A stretch of DNA of 10,469 bases from Candidatus Magasanikbacteria bacterium RIFCSPLOWO2_02_FULL_44_11 (GTDB taxonomy: Bacteria > Patescibacteriota > Patescibacteriia > Magasanikbacterales > GWA2-37-8). Positions 1-5,091 of the stretch are shown here, in pieces; position 1 is the first letter of the stretch, and each line of letters starts with the position of its first letter. The translations under genes were made by a program, and so were the position numbers. The notes under the pieces were generated by a model. The model was not told the DNA's origin, ran no database searches, and saw only the letters and a list, made by a program, of their open reading frames with translations. Location: NCBI GenBank assembly GCA_001783035.1, contig MFQK01000053.1, forward strand, positions 726 through 11,194, read 5' to 3'.

Positions 1-1900
1 TAATAATAAAAACATCGGCGGTAGAGCGCGGCCAAAGCTCGTGACCGCGGATGGTTTGTTCAATAATTCCGGTTATGGAAACGATGTCGCCGAGGCGGTA
101 TTCATTTGTAGTAATATTCGTGCCTTTTTTTATAGTGACCAGCAATTCGTCGGCGCCATCATCGATATAAAGTTGTGAGGCAAGTCGTTTGGTAATTTCT
201 CCTTCAATGGAAACGAGTTTTCCAGGTTGTTCTGTCGCCTCGGCGATCGATGTTGTAGAAGCGTTAAGGACTGTCTGCGTGCCAATTTGGATTTTCTCGG
301 CTTTGATTCGTGGAATTCCGTTGGCAAGAGACACGACCCCGGTTACGTCGGCCCATTGGCCGAGCGTAAGCGGCGGGAATTGTTTATTTTGTTTGTATAT
401 TTGCAGACCTCCGGTTGCATCGACCAGATACCACGATTGGCTGCTGAAAACACCGGGCATTACCGCCACCTGCCCGCGTACTGTCGTCCGCGTACCGATC
501 GGCAGTTCGCGCGCTTTTGCGATTGAGTGTTTGGCGAGCGGTGGTATGTTTATGGCTTCGCTGGCAATAGTTACGATTTCTTCGGTAATATCGGCGTTAT
601 CTAGTGGCAAAGGCGGTGTGCCCGGAGTAGGCGCAGCCCACCGCCAACCATCGTCGGTCAGTTGATAGCTTTTTTGTCTGCTTATTTTTTCATAAATAAT
701 GCTGTCGGCGAGGGTTGTGCTCGAGCTTAAAAGGTAGACAGTCGCTCCAGTATTCGACAACGATAATCCGGTGGCTGCTTTTGAAAATATTGCATAGGCG
801 CCGCCGGACAGCGTAGTCGACGGCGGTATCGTGAACTGGTTGCCATTATCGAGCACGATTCGCCAAGCCGAGACATCGGCAGTTGAGGTGCCGGTATTGT
901 AGAGTTCTATAAATTCTGAATATATTTCGTCGTCGGGATAGAGCTCGGTGATGCGGATGGGCGTGGTGGTGGGCGCGGCGACCCAAAGGTTGCCGCGATA
1001 GGTGCCGGTTGAGCCACTGGTGCTGGCGGCGGCGATTGTTACAGGCCAAAGCCCGCTTGCCGAAAAGCGATGGTTGATTACTTGCCCTTCATATGTTGAT
1101 GATGCGATGAGCCAGGAATAAAAAATGATGCCTCCGCGCGTGTCGGCGGTTTCACTAACCTGAAGAGTTGTGGTGGTATGTACAATGGCCAGGGTCGGTA
1201 AATTCACTTTCCAATGGATTGTTGGTGGTATGATTGTTTTTGGTGCGGTCGTAGTGATCGTGGTTGGTTTTGGCTCCGGTGGAGCCGGTTTAAGCGGCGG
1301 GCTGTAGATTATAGCGCCGACAGGCTGGTCGATGGGAGTAATATAGTTGGCGTAGCCGGGAGTTGGGTCGGCGGTGCGGGACCAGTCGCTGTCGCGGTCG
1401 TGGTCGTCGCCATCGGTGGCGCGAGCGAGCGCTTCACCTTTTTTTGGTGCCGGAAGCGTTGATCCATAATCGACCCGGTCGGCCGCGATGTTTTTTTGGT
1501 CATATAATATAACGCTGTCGCCGTCATTATTGAGGTAATTTGAACTTAAATTGATTAACAACCACTGTTTGGGCTCGATTATGCCGGTAATTTTGGCGAT
1601 AGTGCAGCTAGTTGAACGATTATCGCAAAGATACCAATCTTCAATATCTATGGCTGAATCGCCAGCATTGAACAGTTCTACCCATTCTTTGCTACCGGTG
1701 ATCGGATTTGGGTAAATTTCGTTGATAATAAGCTGATTTATGGAGATGGAGGTGGAATTTGAGTCTGCAGCCGGTTCTTCGGCGATAATAAGCTGATTTA
1801 TGGAGATGGAGGTGGAATTTGAGTCTGCAGCCGGTTCTTCGGCCTGTGCGGATGGCGCAAACAAGCCGATGATGACGAAAAAAATGAGGTTTAACCACAT
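1..1900 (-). CDS. Secreted lamin-tail-domain / OB-fold protein (C-terminus beyond window)
   Basis: An uninterrupted frame runs from ATG at 1898-1900 to the window edge, giving 633 residues without a stop. Residues 1-20 form a signal peptide ending AQA before EE, a type I signal peptidase site. Residues 21-60 are two identical 20-residue blocks encoded by a DNA tandem repeat. Residues 56-187 form a lamin tail domain (EIYPNP, EWVELFN, DIEDWYL, then NNDGDSVILYD). A Thr/Pro-rich linker leads to a PKD/Ig-like beta domain (about 225-312). A second lamin tail domain spans 315-427 (RITELYPDD, EFIELYN). Residues 463-540 and 543-633 each read as an OB-fold-like domain (TTVRGQVAV...WYLVD; LVSIEGEIT...LYIDDG). 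LTD plus OB-fold order occurs in extracellular nucleases such as ExeM, but no catalytic domain lies inside the window. The product is probably exported and surface-associated. No Shine-Dalgarno is visible; an AT-rich TATAAT lies 22-27 bp upstream of the ATG. Domain calls come from reading motifs, so LTD is firm and OB is moderate. Confidence 0.88.
   Translation of the reverse strand, partial: MWLNLIFFVIIGLFAPSAQAEEPAADSNSTSISINQLIIAEEPAADSNSTSISINQLIINEIYPNPITGSKEWVELFNAGDSAIDIEDWYLCDNRSTSCTIAKITGIIEPKQWLLINLSSNYLNNDGDSVILYDQKNIAADRVDYGSTLPAPKKGEALARATDGDDHDRDSDWSRTADPTPGYANYITPIDQPVGAIIYSPPLKPAPPEPKPTTITTTAPKTIIPPTIHWKVNLPTLAIVHTTTTLQVSETADTRGGIIFYSWLIASSTYEGQVINHRFSASGLWPVTIAAASTSGSTGTYRGNLWVAAPTTTPIRITELYPDDEIYSEFIELYNTGTSTADVSAWRIVLDNGNQFTIPPSTTLSGGAYAIFSKAATGLSLSNTGATVYLLSSSTTLADSIIYEKISRQKSYQLTDDGWRWAAPTPGTPPLPLDNADITEEIVTIASEAINIPPLAKHSIAKARELPIGTRTTVRGQVAVMPGVFSSQSWYLVDATGGLQIYKQNKQFPPLTLGQWADVTGVVSLANGIPRIKAEKIQIGTQTVLNASTTSIAEATEQPGKLVSIEGEITKRLASQLYIDDGADELLVTIKKGTNITTNEYRLGDIVSITGIIEQTIRGHELWPRSTADVFII
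1724..1843. repeat. Perfect 60-bp tandem duplication inside the secreted protein gene
   Basis: Positions 1724-1783 and 1784-1843 are identical base for base, and the identity stops exactly at both outer edges (T1723 vs C1783; G1784 vs C1844). The unit is 20 codons, so the frame is kept. It duplicates protein residues 21-40 as 41-60 (AEEPAADSNSTSISINQLII in shifted phase), directly after the signal peptide cleavage site. No silent differences have accumulated, which points to a recent slippage/duplication event, a contraction-expansion locus, or an assembly artefact. Confidence 0.97.
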
Positions 1901-1973: not shown

Positions 1974-2102
1974 ATGAGGATAAGTAAGGTGGTTAATTAT
2001 ATTTTTGAGTTGGTTATGGTCACCGAAGGCGACTATCCCCAATACCTCGTAGTCGAGGAAAGTGAAAAATGTGATTGGCTACGGTATGTTTGTATACACT
2101 AG
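1974..2102 (+). CDS. Possible 42-residue small protein, unrecognised
   Basis: ATG at 1974 opens 42 codons closed by TAG at 2100-2102; a second in-frame ATG at 2016 would give 28 residues. The product starts MRISKVVNYIFEL and is acidic in its second half (EGDYPQ, EESEKCDW) with two cysteines. No Shine-Dalgarno is seen, no family is recognised, and the stop codon falls inside the core of the palindrome at 2088-2113. Two small hairpins also lie inside the frame (2019-2033, 2045-2058), so the segment could instead be a structured RNA or non-functional sequence. Chance remains a serious explanation at this length. Confidence 0.25.
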   Translation: MRISKVVNYIFELVMVTEGDYPQYLVVEESEKCDWLRYVCIH

Positions 2103-2113
2103 TCTATACAAAC
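2088..2113. promoter_or_regulatory. 26-bp near-perfect palindrome, copy 1
   Basis: Left arm GTTTGTATA (2088-2096) and right arm TATACAAAC (2105-2113) are exact reverse complements around a core C-ACTAGT-C whose ACTAGT is itself a palindrome. The only break in symmetry is the C/C pair at 2097 and 2104. Perfect dyad symmetry of this size fits an operator for a homodimeric regulator. The 11+6+11 geometry would also suit a recombinase core site. The binding protein is unknown. Confidence 0.7.
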
Positions 2114-2143
2114 TGGGGATAACTCGGTGCACAAAGTGGATAA
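2114..2143 (-). promoter_or_regulatory. Two DnaA-box-like 9-mers
   Basis: On the minus strand TTATCCCCA (2114-2122) and TTATCCACT (2135-2143) each differ by one base from the DnaA consensus TTATCCACA. They lie 21 bp apart, about two helical turns, in the same orientation. The first abuts the right arm of palindrome copy 1. A weaker plus-strand CTATCCCCA lies at 2033-2041. Downstream sequence (2155-2190) is AT-rich. This could be an origin-like element or a DnaA-controlled regulatory site; dnaA or dnaN is not in the window. Confidence 0.45.
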
Positions 2144-2189: not shown

Positions 2190-2215
2190 GTTTGTATAGA
2201 CTAGTGTAGACAACA
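2190..2215. promoter_or_regulatory. Palindrome copy 2, inverted relative to copy 1
   Basis: The first 19 bases (2190-2208) equal the reverse complement of copy 1 exactly: GTTTGTATAG, then ACTAGT, then GTA. The right arm has decayed to TAGACAAC. The two copies therefore face each other as inverted repeats with centres 102 bp apart and about 76 bp between them. A 19-bp exact match at this distance is not expected by chance and indicates a shared binding or recombination function. Confidence 0.7.
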
Positions 2216-2280: not shown

Positions 2281-2309
2281 TTGACAAATTGTCACAGAAG
2301 TGCTATACT
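2281..2309 (+). promoter_or_regulatory. Strong sigma70-type promoter for the structured RNA
   Basis: A perfect TTGACA (2281-2286), a 17-bp spacer and TATACT (2304-2309) predict initiation near 2315-2317. A small dyad, TGACA-AAT-TGTCA (2282-2294), overlaps the -35 box and could be an operator. No ORF follows at useful distance, so the promoter appears dedicated to an RNA. Confidence 0.85.
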
Positions 2310-2540
2310 ATATATGTTGATCTTTCAACAATTTAGTTTCCTTACTACAACTTCGGGTGAAGCAGTGGAATCGCAGTTGCTCTCATTATAAAAAGCAGCG
2401 GCAATTCCATACTGCAAAGACGGTATCCTCAAATTAGGTTCCATGACCCACAAGCGATTGGTACCGCCGAGGTAATACCCCCGCGTGGTTGGAAACATTT
2501 TTCTTTTGGGCGCATGAACGCCCCGTCAATCTGACGGACA

Positions 2541-2572
2541 GTTCTCGCTTATTAGAATTTAAAGGCGAGAAC
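2541..2572 (+). promoter_or_regulatory. Candidate antiterminator hairpin
   Basis: GTTCTCGC (2541-2548) pairs perfectly with GCGAGAAC (2565-2572) around a 16-nt loop. The 3' arm is the same segment that forms the 5' arm of the terminator that follows, so the two structures exclude each other. This arrangement is typical of transcription attenuation, where ligand or protein binding to the upstream RNA chooses between them. Confidence 0.55.
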
Positions 2573-2609
2573 CTCAAAATAAAAATAATTGGGTTTACTC
2601 GCCTTTTTT
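2562..2609 (+). terminator. Intrinsic terminator after the structured RNA
   Basis: AAGGCGAG (2562-2569) pairs with CTCGCCTT (2598-2605), and the inner AACCT (2570-2574) pairs with GGGTT (2591-2595). The helix is followed by a T-rich tract (2604-2615). The stem is GC-rich where it matters, so this should be an efficient stop unless the competing hairpin forms. Confidence 0.85.
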
Positions 2610-2653: not shown

Positions 2654-2682
2654 TTGACAGAATAGTTTTTTTTCGGTACCAT
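2654..2682 (+). promoter_or_regulatory. Promoter for the dksA-lspA-comM operon
   Basis: A perfect TTGACA (2654-2659), a 17-bp spacer and TACCAT (2677-2682, four of six consensus bases) predict a start near 2689, about 30 nt before the first gene. Its position just after a terminator suggests the operon need not depend on read-through from the structured RNA. Confidence 0.6.
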
Positions 2683-2718: not shown

Positions 2719-3093
2719 ATGGCTAAATCTATCGTAACAAAAACTTCATTTACCGCTGAATTCTTTGATAAAATTAAGGAAATTCTATTAAAAAATAAAA
2801 CGAAGTTTGAAAAAGAATTAAAGAACCAGGAAGGCGATGGTCCGTTTCCGGACTATGGTGATTCCGAAGAGGATAATGCTCGAGAAATTGCCGATTACGA
2901 AGCAAACTTATCAATAGAAAACGATTTACTGCGATCGTTGCGAGATGTGAATTCAGCTTTGAAGCGGATTGAAAAAGGTGACTACGGTATTTGCCGTTAT
3001 TGCAAAAAAGCCATCGAAGAGAGGCGGCTGCTCGCGCGACCAACTTCCAGCGCCTGCGTCGCCTGTAAAAAAACAATCATCCAGGAGGCCTAA
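2719..3093 (+). CDS. DksA/TraR-family zinc-finger transcription regulator
   Basis: The 124-residue protein has the family layout. An N-terminal helix (about 10-38) and a second helix (about 52-86) form the coiled coil, with an acidic turn between them (DYGDSEEDNA, 45-54). The C4 zinc finger GDYGICRYC...ACVAC uses Cys 92, 95, 113 and 116, followed by a short helix. DksA-type proteins insert the coiled-coil tip into the RNA polymerase secondary channel and modulate initiation, often with ppGpp in proteobacteria. An acidic/Ala tip is present, but the exact DksA DxxDxA arrangement is not obvious, so TraR/YteA-like behaviour is equally possible. It is the first gene of a tight cluster: lspA follows after 18 bp. 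No Shine-Dalgarno is visible before the ATG, and the start is chosen because it is the first ATG after the promoter and gives a family-typical length. Confidence 0.9.
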   Translation: MAKSIVTKTSFTAEFFDKIKEILLKNKTKFEKELKNQEGDGPFPDYGDSEEDNAREIADYEANLSIENDLLRSLRDVNSALKRIEKGDYGICRYCKKAIEERRLLARPTSSACVACKKTIIQEA

Positions 3094-3111: not shown

Positions 3112-3570
3112 ATGACAAAACAACGCACCCTACTTTATGGAATTTTTATCTGTGGTGTGTTTATATATATAGACCGATGGTTTAAATGGCAGTCGTTGCA
3201 CGACTGGTCATTATCGGTACTTATCAATTCCAAATTAGGCTGGCTGCCTTTTTTGAATGACGGTGTCGCTTTTGGGTTACCCGTGCCTATGGCGTGGGTG
3301 AAATTTATAACCGTTCCTTTGATTGTTGGAATGGGCTATTTTATGGCGCGCGAGTATCGGCGCGGTCCGAATATGTCCGAGTGGAAGTTAATCGGATTTA
3401 TGGCGGTTATTTCTGGTGCGGTATCAAATCTTGTTGATCGGCTGGTTTACAATAAGACCATAGACTATATTTTGATTTTCACCGGAGTAATAAACCTGGC
3501 TGATGTAATAATTATTGCCGGTTTTCTACTTTTGTATTTTACGCATAAACGTTTGCCGACGGCAACGTAA
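3112..3570 (+). CDS. lspA: Lipoprotein signal peptidase (SPase II), divergent
   Basis: The 152-residue polytopic membrane protein cleaves the signal peptide of diacylglyceryl-modified prolipoproteins. Four hydrophobic segments are seen (about 6-22, 62-78, 92-108 and 121-143). Family motifs are present in order. D21-R-W-F-K stands where DQxxK is usual. LNDGVAFG (48-55) matches NxGxAFG. SGAVSNLVDR (101-110) corresponds to the GGxxGNxxDR box. NLADVIIIAG (128-137) corresponds to FNxADxxxxxG. The catalytic aspartate pair is therefore D109 and D131. The substitutions DQ to DR, and GGxxGN to SGxxSN, mark it as a diverged member, though the catalytic residues are intact. It lies 18 bp after the dksA-like gene and 15 bp before comM, so it is probably co-transcribed. 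No lipobox protein is encoded in this window. A GGAAAG ahead of the ATG is a weak ribosome-binding site. Confidence 0.88.
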   Translation: MTKQRTLLYGIFICGVFIYIDRWFKWQSLHDWSLSVLINSKLGWLPFLNDGVAFGLPVPMAWVKFITVPLIVGMGYFMAREYRRGPNMSEWKLIGFMAVISGAVSNLVDRLVYNKTIDYILIFTGVINLADVIIIAGFLLLYFTHKRLPTAT

Positions 3571-3585: not shown

Positions 3586-5091
3586 ATGTTTTGTACGCTT
3601 CGTGCGGCCGAACTCGTCGGTCTTGATTGTGTGCCGGTCAATGTGGAAGTTGACCTGCACAAAGGACAAACGAATTTTGCAATTGTCGGTTTGGCCAACG
3701 CCGCTATTAAGGAAGCCAAAGATCGTCTTTATGCGGCTATAAAAAATGCCGGTTTTAACTATCCTTTTAATTTTCGGATTGTTATAAATTTGGCGCCGGC
3801 CGACCTTCATAAGGAAGGTTCGGCCTATGATTTGCCGATGGCGCTAGGAATCGTGGCTCTGAGCAATGGTTGGCAATTTGATGTTCAAGATGCGTTGGTT
3901 GTCGGTGAATTGGCGCTTGATGGTAACGTTCGCCATGTGCGCGGGGTCTTGCCGCTTGCCTTGTGGGCACGCGATCACGGCTTGAAAAGGCTTTTTGTTC
4001 CAGCCGATAATGCCGAAGAGTCAACGCTGGTTGATGGGTTAGTCATTTTTCCCGTGCATCATCTTGGTGAGTTGGTGGAACATTTGCAGGGTAAGCGGCA
4101 AATTGAGCCGTTCGTTGGCAAGGCTTTTGAAAATGAGGTGGTGTTGGCAAGCGATTTAGATTTTTCATTGATCAAAGGACACCACACCGCTAAGCGGGCA
4201 CTCGAAGTCGCTGCCAGCGGGGGACACAATGTTTTGATGAGCGGTCCGCCTGGTTCCGGTAAAACACTTTTGGCTCGTTCTTTGCCTTCGATTTTGCCGC
4301 CGCTTACCGAGCAGGAAAAAATCGAAGTGACGATGGTTTATTCAGTCGCCGAAACGCTCAAAACCAATCTTGTGAAAGAGCGGCCGTTTCGTTCGCCGCA
4401 TCACACGGCATCGGGGGCGGCGCTTATCGGTGGAGGCCATATCCCTCGACCGGGCGAAATTTCTATGGCCCATCGCGGAGTACTTTTTCTCGATGAATTT
4501 CCGGAATTTTCACGAGGTGTTATTGAAAGTTTGCGACAACCACTGGAAGATGGTGTGGTTACAGTCGCGCGGGCGGAACGGACGGTTAGTTTTCCGGCGC
4601 GGTTTATGTTAATAGCCAGCCAAAATCCTTGTCCGTGCGGCTACGCGAGCGATCCCGAACATCCCTGCGTGTGTACCGGGGCGCAGTTGGCGCGATATAA
4701 TAAAAAAATAAGTGGCCCATTGCTCGACCGCATAGATATTCTTTTGGAAGTGCCGCGTTTGCCGGTGGAATCGCTTATGACTAGCACGCGTGCCGAACCA
4801 TCGTCAGCGATTCGGGAGCGTGTCCTTATGGCTCGTGAGCGACAAACACGCCGCTTCAAAGGATTGTCCATACACACTAACAGTGAAATGCAGGGAGAAA
4901 TTTTGGCGCAATTTTGTGAAATAGATCAACCGTCATGGGAGCTTGTTAGGCAAGCTGTTGAGCGATATAAATTATCGGCTCGGGCGTATAATCGCGTGCT
5001 CAAAGTCAGTCGCACCATCGCCGACTTGGCCGGAAGTGAAAATATTCAGCTGCCACATCTGGCCGAGGCTTTGCAGTTCCGATTATCCTAG
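3586..5091 (+). CDS. comM: ComM / YifB-family Mg-chelatase-like AAA+ helicase
   Basis: The 501 residues match the ComM/YifB family in length and layout. An N-terminal Lon-protease-like ChlI domain (about 1-165) starts in family style (LVGLDCVPVNVEVDL, FAIVGLANAAIKEAKDR, NLAPADLHKEGSAYDLP). The AAA+ core has Walker A GPPGSGKT (220-227), FRSPHHTAS (268-276), Walker B VLFLDEF (299-305) and an arginine motif DRIDI (381-385). A four-cysteine cluster NPCPCGYAS...CVC (Cys 349, 351, 361, 363) probably binds zinc. The C-terminal Mg-chelatase helical domain includes SARAYNRVLKVSRTIADL (464-481). ComM is a hexameric branch-migration motor that helps integrate single-stranded DNA taken up in natural transformation in proteobacteria. 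Many Patescibacteria also carry it. No residue appears missing. It is the last gene of the dksA-lspA-comM cluster, with a terminator 6 bp after the stop. Confidence 0.95.
   Translation: MFCTLRAAELVGLDCVPVNVEVDLHKGQTNFAIVGLANAAIKEAKDRLYAAIKNAGFNYPFNFRIVINLAPADLHKEGSAYDLPMALGIVALSNGWQFDVQDALVVGELALDGNVRHVRGVLPLALWARDHGLKRLFVPADNAEESTLVDGLVIFPVHHLGELVEHLQGKRQIEPFVGKAFENEVVLASDLDFSLIKGHHTAKRALEVAASGGHNVLMSGPPGSGKTLLARSLPSILPPLTEQEKIEVTMVYSVAETLKTNLVKERPFRSPHHTASGAALIGGGHIPRPGEISMAHRGVLFLDEFPEFSRGVIESLRQPLEDGVVTVARAERTVSFPARFMLIASQNPCPCGYASDPEHPCVCTGAQLARYNKKISGPLLDRIDILLEVPRLPVESLMTSTRAEPSSAIRERVLMARERQTRRFKGLSIHTNSEMQGEILAQFCEIDQPSWELVRQAVERYKLSARAYNRVLKVSRTIADLAGSENIQLPHLAEALQFRLS

Follow-up and report, generated by a model that had tools for sequence, protein, structure and literature searches.

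The stretch of DNA analysed here, referred to as the window, is 10,469 nt long, and all coordinates follow its numbering (Table 1). Its genome is designated G000, the genomes and loci compared with it carry G and L labels, and the terms host family, host order and host class denote the taxonomic groups to which G000 belongs, the class being one which we take to be ABY1. A dksA-lspA-comM gene group occupies the plus strand, and the sequence ahead of it contains a promoter-like site, a series of hairpins and a second promoter-like site. An initial sequence-only reading of this DNA had described a near-perfect promoter driving a region devoid of reading frames, and both descriptions hold. The promoter at 2281-2309 (TTGACA-17-TATACT) matches the consensus at 11 of 12 positions, whilst no open reading frame of at least 60 amino acids is present in 2315-2609, the maximum on the plus strand being 42 amino acids. 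On the minus strand, a gene at 2-1900 encodes a large product with an N-terminus resembling that of a secreted protein, and an exact 60-bp tandem duplication (20 amino acids) is found within it at 1724-1843, near the protein start. At about 1500-1800 of L006 (G006 C7) and in L014, further short units of transcription were seen with promoters of this near-perfect type; they are apparently unrelated to the RNA described below.

Table 1. Features mapped in the window upstream of and within the dksA-lspA-comM group
Feature	Position	Strand	Basis or remark
20-bp palindrome TGTATACACTAGTCTATACA, copy 1	2091-2110		0.00 mean expected in 200 shuffles
DnaA-box-like TTATCCCCA	2114-2122	-	1 mismatch to the consensus
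DnaA-box-like TTATCCACT	2135-2143	-	1 mismatch to the consensus
20-bp palindrome, copy 2, imperfect	2193-2212		palindrome scan
RNA promoter, TTGACA-17-TATACT	2281-2309	+	11/12 consensus match; TG ahead of the second hexamer
5' hairpin, UCUUU near the loop	2315-2330	+	fold; putative transcript start at about 2316
P1, 5' strand (GUUUCC + ACUAC)	2336-2348	+	fold, covariation; class-level P1
Arm A, long hairpin with internal loop	2362-2415	+	fold, 21-sequence alignment
Arm B, small internal loop flanked by GGUA/UACC and CCUC/GAGG helices	2422-2479	+	fold, 21-sequence alignment
P1, 3' strand (GUGGU + GGAAAC)	2485-2496	+	fold, covariation; class-level P1
Hairpin C	2501-2557	+	folds in each of 21 homologous stretches, -15.7 to -28.7 kcal/mol
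Terminator hairpin with internal loop, then U-run	2561-2610 (hairpin 2561-2606)	+	fold and conservation
Promoter-like site for dksA, TTGACA-17-TACCAT	2654-2682	+	10/12 match
dksA/TraR-type zinc-finger protein	2719-3093	+	PF01258
lspA, signal peptidase II	3112-3570	+	PF01252
comM-like Mg-chelatase-type ATPase	3586-5091	+	PF01078, PF13541, PF13335

The segment 2316-2609 folds with a predicted free energy of -96.1 kcal/mol (z -6.35), and none of 200 shuffled sequences folded equally well. The closing helix, here termed P1, was recovered where it had first been placed, with 2336-2341 pairing with 2491-2496 and 2344-2348 with 2485-2489; a conserved wobble within it sets U2346 opposite G2487. Three arms had been proposed inside this helix, of which the comparison backs two (2362-2415 and 2422-2479). 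In arm B, pairing reaches 97.6% of cells in both helices across 21 sequences. The predicted common core consists of helix P1, which is long and contains a near-invariant U.G wobble, and of the two arms that it encloses. Downstream of the core, RNAalifold gave no common structure for hairpin C from two alignments of the 21 homologous stretches. The terminator was correctly recognised at the outset; its hairpin and U-run are present in the fold and conserved, though a simple terminator scan of the window reported none. By contrast, the pseudoknot suggested between 2442-2450 and 2507-2516 receives no backing from covariation: among the 21 homologues the own pairing is -16.9 kcal/mol as against -15.9 kcal/mol for cross-species pairings, and the pairing between the arm B loop and the start of hairpin C in the window (-14.5 kcal/mol) is equalled or bettered by 35% of cross pairs.

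A first search at the DNA level covered 95 genomes, among them G000. Its matches were mostly at chance level, with five loci beyond that of the window lying near a dksA-type gene. A covariance model built from four sequences (R1, threshold E<=0.01) detected the RNA in 20 of 25 host-family genomes, G000 included, and in one of 61 other genomes of the host order. A second model, R2, adds G002 (E 5e-6), bringing to 21 the host-family genomes, out of 25, with the RNA upstream of dksA; when R2 was applied to 52 loci with filters off, 11 loci scored at E<=0.016 ahead of a chance-level tail, and G002 alone was counted. In G006 and G008 dksA is present and the RNA was not found in front of it, and neither dksA nor the RNA turned up in G019 or G020. 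In all 21 loci assembled for comparison (20 from the host family and L068 from family f5) dksA lies on the same strand, 3' of the RNA, and a site of the form TTGAC-N16..20-TAnnnT precedes the RNA in every one. The gap between RNA and dksA is 72-283 bp in 19 of these loci, 596 bp in L059 and 817 bp in L066.

These same 21 sequences, fitted to the model structure, make up alignment A6. In its core 92.1% of cells pair, two-sided changes occur at 19 of 30 pairs and the covariation score is 0.360, values which lean towards the model structure because the alignment was fitted to it; sliding the partners by 1-3 columns leaves at most seven pairs with two-sided changes and a score of at most 0.114. 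An unfitted MAFFT alignment of four sequences gave two-sided changes at 6 of 30 pairs, versus at most one in slid controls. The terminator was assessed in 18 homologues, after exclusion of three congeneric sequences whose hairpin is longer. Here 27 cells change on both sides, as compared with no more than 10 in slid controls, and the score is 0.332 against at most 0.172; counted by pairs, the margin is nine of 12, with slid controls reaching seven. The homologous regions upstream of dksA, singled out in the earlier reading as the place to look for covariation, do covary in the core, and the RNA structure is, as judged from these alignments, under selection.

A further conserved element is found at the 5' end. 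The motif G-A/U-U-C-U/A-U-U follows directly after the RNA start (2316-2330) and resembles the boxA consensus; in DNA form, 18 of the 21 homologues have G[ATC][TA]C[AT]TT shortly downstream of the -10 box. Eleven spellings of the motif were looked for in 15 rRNA leaders, over the 600 bases preceding 16S. Three leaders (L184, L185 and L187, all from genomes of the family) contain it, in the form G[AT]TCATTGACAA at 202-313 bases before 16S, and none was found in the other 12. A looser version, lying no more than 32 nt from a -10 box, is present in one of the 15 leaders.

The Rfam 15 models were run with cmscan on the window, on 2250-2720 alone and on two sets of relatives' loci (eight and 14). 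No Rfam family matches at the RNA or comes near its gathering score, the best score in the scan of 2250-2720 being 20.8 bits against a gathering score of 100 (RF03532). No match to the window was found in a plasmid collection, and no description of the RNA was found in the literature searched. Transfer-messenger RNA is of similar length, but its genes are separate from the RNA considered here. No Rfam match to tmRNA (RF00023) was obtained at the RNA, ARAGORN predicts no tmRNA gene in the window or in 12 loci, and this identity was rejected. An ordinary tmRNA gene was identified in 33 of the 37 genomes examined (about 390-420 nt in relatives), and G001, G005 and G010 each possess both a tmRNA gene and the RNA upstream of dksA. 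SmpB scores above the cut-off in 32 of the 37 genomes, its gene mostly adjoining that for tmRNA. A tmRNA-like GAATTCGACAG noticed by eye in L041 was dropped because separate tmRNA genes had been found, and L041 was later matched by the class-level model described below. G000 itself shows neither tmRNA nor SmpB above the cut-off (one weak SmpB match with stops lies on C39), and the same is true of G018, G025 and G039; in G000 this perhaps reflects missing contigs or true loss.

Other housekeeping RNAs fared similarly. RNase P RNA (RF00010) was rejected, as the single match in G000 lies elsewhere (C34:26400-26847, E 3.7e-45) and none falls in the window, and SRP RNA has no match in the window up to E 10. 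The RNA of the raiA motif usually adjoins raiA. This motif (RF03072) has no match at the RNA in the window or in the relatives' loci scanned. A separate weak similarity was recorded at L029:1586-1930, where the Rfam cspA thermoregulator scores 39.8 bits (E 4e-7) against a gathering score of 78. The RNA resembles the raiA motif RNA (ModT) in being a stand-alone structured bacterial ncRNA which is widely conserved, and it can be compared with OLE, GOLLD and ROOL, bacterial RNAs that are large and structured and are reported to have no settled function. OLE differs in its reported length of about 600 nt and its distribution mostly among Gram-positive bacteria, whilst the RNA upstream of dksA has no Rfam match. 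ModT is described as trans-acting, is accompanied by terminator predictions and differs in its bacterial hosts and in a fold with two pseudoknots and helices P1-P8 (PMC11706538). A stand-alone structured ncRNA is a known kind of molecule, and the family itself appears to be new.

The sequence-only reading had also suggested that the RNA might be specific to its lineage, which has turned out to be too narrow a view. Homologues of dksA were located in 125 of 144 genomes of the class and 78 of 86 of the order (E<=1e-6), and the upstream DNA was read for part of them. Outside the host family, 48 regions were sampled (28 of the best-scoring, one of them from the same order, and 20 from lower in the list). 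An A-rich strand, AAAACAAAAACAAAA with at most three mismatches, was present in 32 of these regions at a distance of 200-650 bases ahead of the dksA match. The opposite strand gave five, shuffling would give 4.3, and the motif was not found in the remaining 16 regions. The P1 strands of 35 loci outside the host family pair at -18.5 kcal/mol with their own partner and at -12.5 kcal/mol across species, own pairing beating 90% of cross pairings in 19 of the 35; the windows had been selected visually at anchors of the ACU/GGU type. A duplex test on long flanks in 32 loci (own -50.2, cross -47.7, rank <=0.1 in six) gave no clear signal; it scores any long duplex and was set aside.

A class-level model, R3, was built from an alignment (A9) of 13 loci, all drawn from other orders and families of the class and none from the host order. 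Eight of the 13 pairs of the class-level P1 show two-sided changes in A9, and an A-U, a C-G and a U.G pair are invariant in all 13 sequences; for the whole structure the figure is 9 of 16 pairs, with up to six in slid controls, and the score is 0.377 against at most 0.186. R3 was run on two sets of loci not used in training and matched, at E<=0.002, nine in the set of 55 and 13 in that of 57, as against none of 59 control loci (best control E 0.07). The total is 22 of 112 loci, among which L075 repeats the locus of the window, L166 is contained in L040 and some had earlier been viewed by eye. Four of the matches are from the host order (L121, L148, L162 and L163) and 16 from other genomes of the class; L039 (Candidatus Uhrbacteria) and L041 are also included. 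The other 90 loci, the host family among them, are unmatched at this threshold. An R3 match at L088:692-814 on the plus strand (E 5.2e-7) is on the strand opposite to the dksA of that locus, and the RNA gene may have moved there.

The RNAs of the host family and of the wider class can be joined because two loci match both models, the location is common and the P1 wobble is shared. L074, from another order, has an E value of 2.2e-5 with R2 genome-wide and 4.7e-6 with R3; for L148 the values are 5.7e-5 and 3.8e-5. The U.G wobble of P1 is present in 13 of 13 sequences of A9 and in 19 of 21 of A6. R2 on its own, run genome-wide, reaches only 11 of 380 genomes of the class, comprising 10 of about 12 same-family genomes listed and one other. 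Together these comparisons place relatives in at least one order of the class besides that of the host, and the putative RNA family is one found in several of its families.

The choice between a riboswitch and a dedicated regulatory ncRNA, both of which had been entertained at first, leans to the second. No Rfam family matches, the core covaries and separate promoter-like sites are present in 21 of 21 loci, all of which favour a dedicated ncRNA. That the RNA is instead a cis-acting leader (a riboswitch or attenuator) of dksA-lspA-comM seems improbable. A multi-helix RNA with a terminator ahead of a conserved operon is the arrangement to be expected of such a leader, and an equally improbable mechanism can be formulated, in which a ligand or protein would make UUCUCGC, the 3' side of hairpin C, pair with the 5' side of the terminator (GGCGAGAA), with the result that polymerase continues into dksA. 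In the window this alternative pairing comprises 10 consecutive pairs (-15.9 kcal/mol), and one of 50 shuffles was equally good. Over the 21 homologues, however, with positions in the attenuator test, as in that of the terminator, anchored on the sequences themselves, the attenuator-like pairing is -13.2 kcal/mol for own and -12.9 kcal/mol for cross-species combinations and does not covary; it is no better than in shuffles in L029, L055, L057, L066 and L068. Furthermore, a promoter-like site for dksA (TTGnnn-16..18-TAnnnT, at most 150 bp upstream) follows the terminator in all 21 homologues as judged by consensus match, where 4.1 would be expected by shuffling, and in L059 and L066 the RNA and dksA are held apart by several hundred base pairs of other sequence. 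The riboswitch is disfavoured because the RNA would end before the dksA promoter-like site, because of these long gaps and because the attenuator pairing does not covary.

The surroundings of the RNA promoter raise a different question, that of a connection with chromosome replication. The DnaA-box consensus is TTATCCACA. Two copies of a palindrome of the type TGTATAcACTAGTcTATACA lie about 100 bp apart in the window, with DnaA-box-like sites between them. Sites with one mismatch are not above chance in the window (five found, 2.2 expected), and no exact box (TTATNCACA) precedes the RNA there. Across the host order, 58 upstream regions contain 108 TTATNCACA boxes where 1.8 would be expected, and the 20-bp palindrome (at most three mismatches) occurs in 51 of them, with none expected. 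In the host class, 47 upstream regions hold 42 boxes against 2.3 expected, at least two boxes being present in only 12. In two host-family genomes a distance of 7-12 kb separates the RNA gene from dnaA-dnaN. In G021 the RNA is at 108.6 kb and dnaN and dnaA, with rnpA adjoining, at about 116-119 kb; GC skew runs from -0.08 to -0.14 up to the RNA gene, is near zero at 113-118 kb and is positive beyond. In G017 the RNA is at 52.1 kb, and the turn in skew coincides with dnaA and dnaN at about 39.5-42.5 kb. Elsewhere, G159 is roughly consistent but noisy, G091 could be read on one side only, and no skew switch is seen in the window, nor a clear one in G099. An origin at the RNA itself was rejected, the switch in G021 and G017 being nearer to dnaA-dnaN, and for the same reason the boxes near the RNA need not be the origin. 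The candidate DnaA boxes may regulate the RNA gene or belong to the origin.

It is conceivable on this basis, though we regard it as a poor prospect, that the act of transcription outweighs the RNA, either through firing of the promoter beside the DnaA boxes and palindromes controlling replication initiation, or through the RNA priming or blocking initiation. The abundance of boxes and palindromes in the order and class is in its favour, as is the short distance, in G021 and G017, from the RNA to dnaA-dnaN and to the skew switch. Against it stands the covarying core, which implies that the RNA product itself is selected. The position of the switch in these two genomes, its absence along with that of an exact box in the window, the lack of a clear switch in G099 and merely rough agreement in G159, and the small share of class regions with two or more boxes also argue against it.

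It is very unlikely that in this class the RNA takes the place of a known housekeeping RNA (6S being the most plausible) and binds RNA polymerase. E. coli DksA binds RNA polymerase, and the RNA adjoins the gene for its namesake; its size and autonomous promoter are compatible with such a role, 6S RNA being an autonomous regulatory RNA of comparable size, and no 6S was found in 144 genomes of the class or in G000 at E<=10. That absence is weak evidence because the search detected 6S in only five of 14 control genomes. The 6S models (RF00013) are unmatched at the RNA, and its branched junction differs from the rod-like 6S, a long hairpin with a central bubble.

We consider it likely that a structured ncRNA of about 290 nt is specified by a stand-alone gene of its own at 2281-2610, acts in trans and belongs to a family outside Rfam, encoded as a rule just upstream of dksA. 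That a conserved structured RNA is encoded there is more certain than the whole of this reading. The RNA would be transcribed from its own promoter-like site and terminated before that of dksA. Once folded, it would act in trans as a scaffold or regulator, a step suggested by the gene layout, with P1 and the arms presenting conserved internal loops to a protein or RNA partner; outside the host family the exposed A-rich strand would also be presented. Since the promoter adjoins DnaA boxes and a palindrome in the origin region, synthesis of the RNA may be tied to the replication cycle, so that it would perhaps be made in step with replication. It is unlikely that this is a class-wide origin-proximal regulatory RNA, its promoter controlled by DnaA and a putative palindrome-binding protein, which links replication to transcription or translation and stands in for 6S-type RNAs.

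An RNA whose structure has been kept across several families is probably important to its hosts, since their genomes are only about 1 Mb in size. Its location near dksA, near DnaA boxes and, in two genomes, near the dnaA-dnaN region provides concrete hypotheses as to what its role may be.
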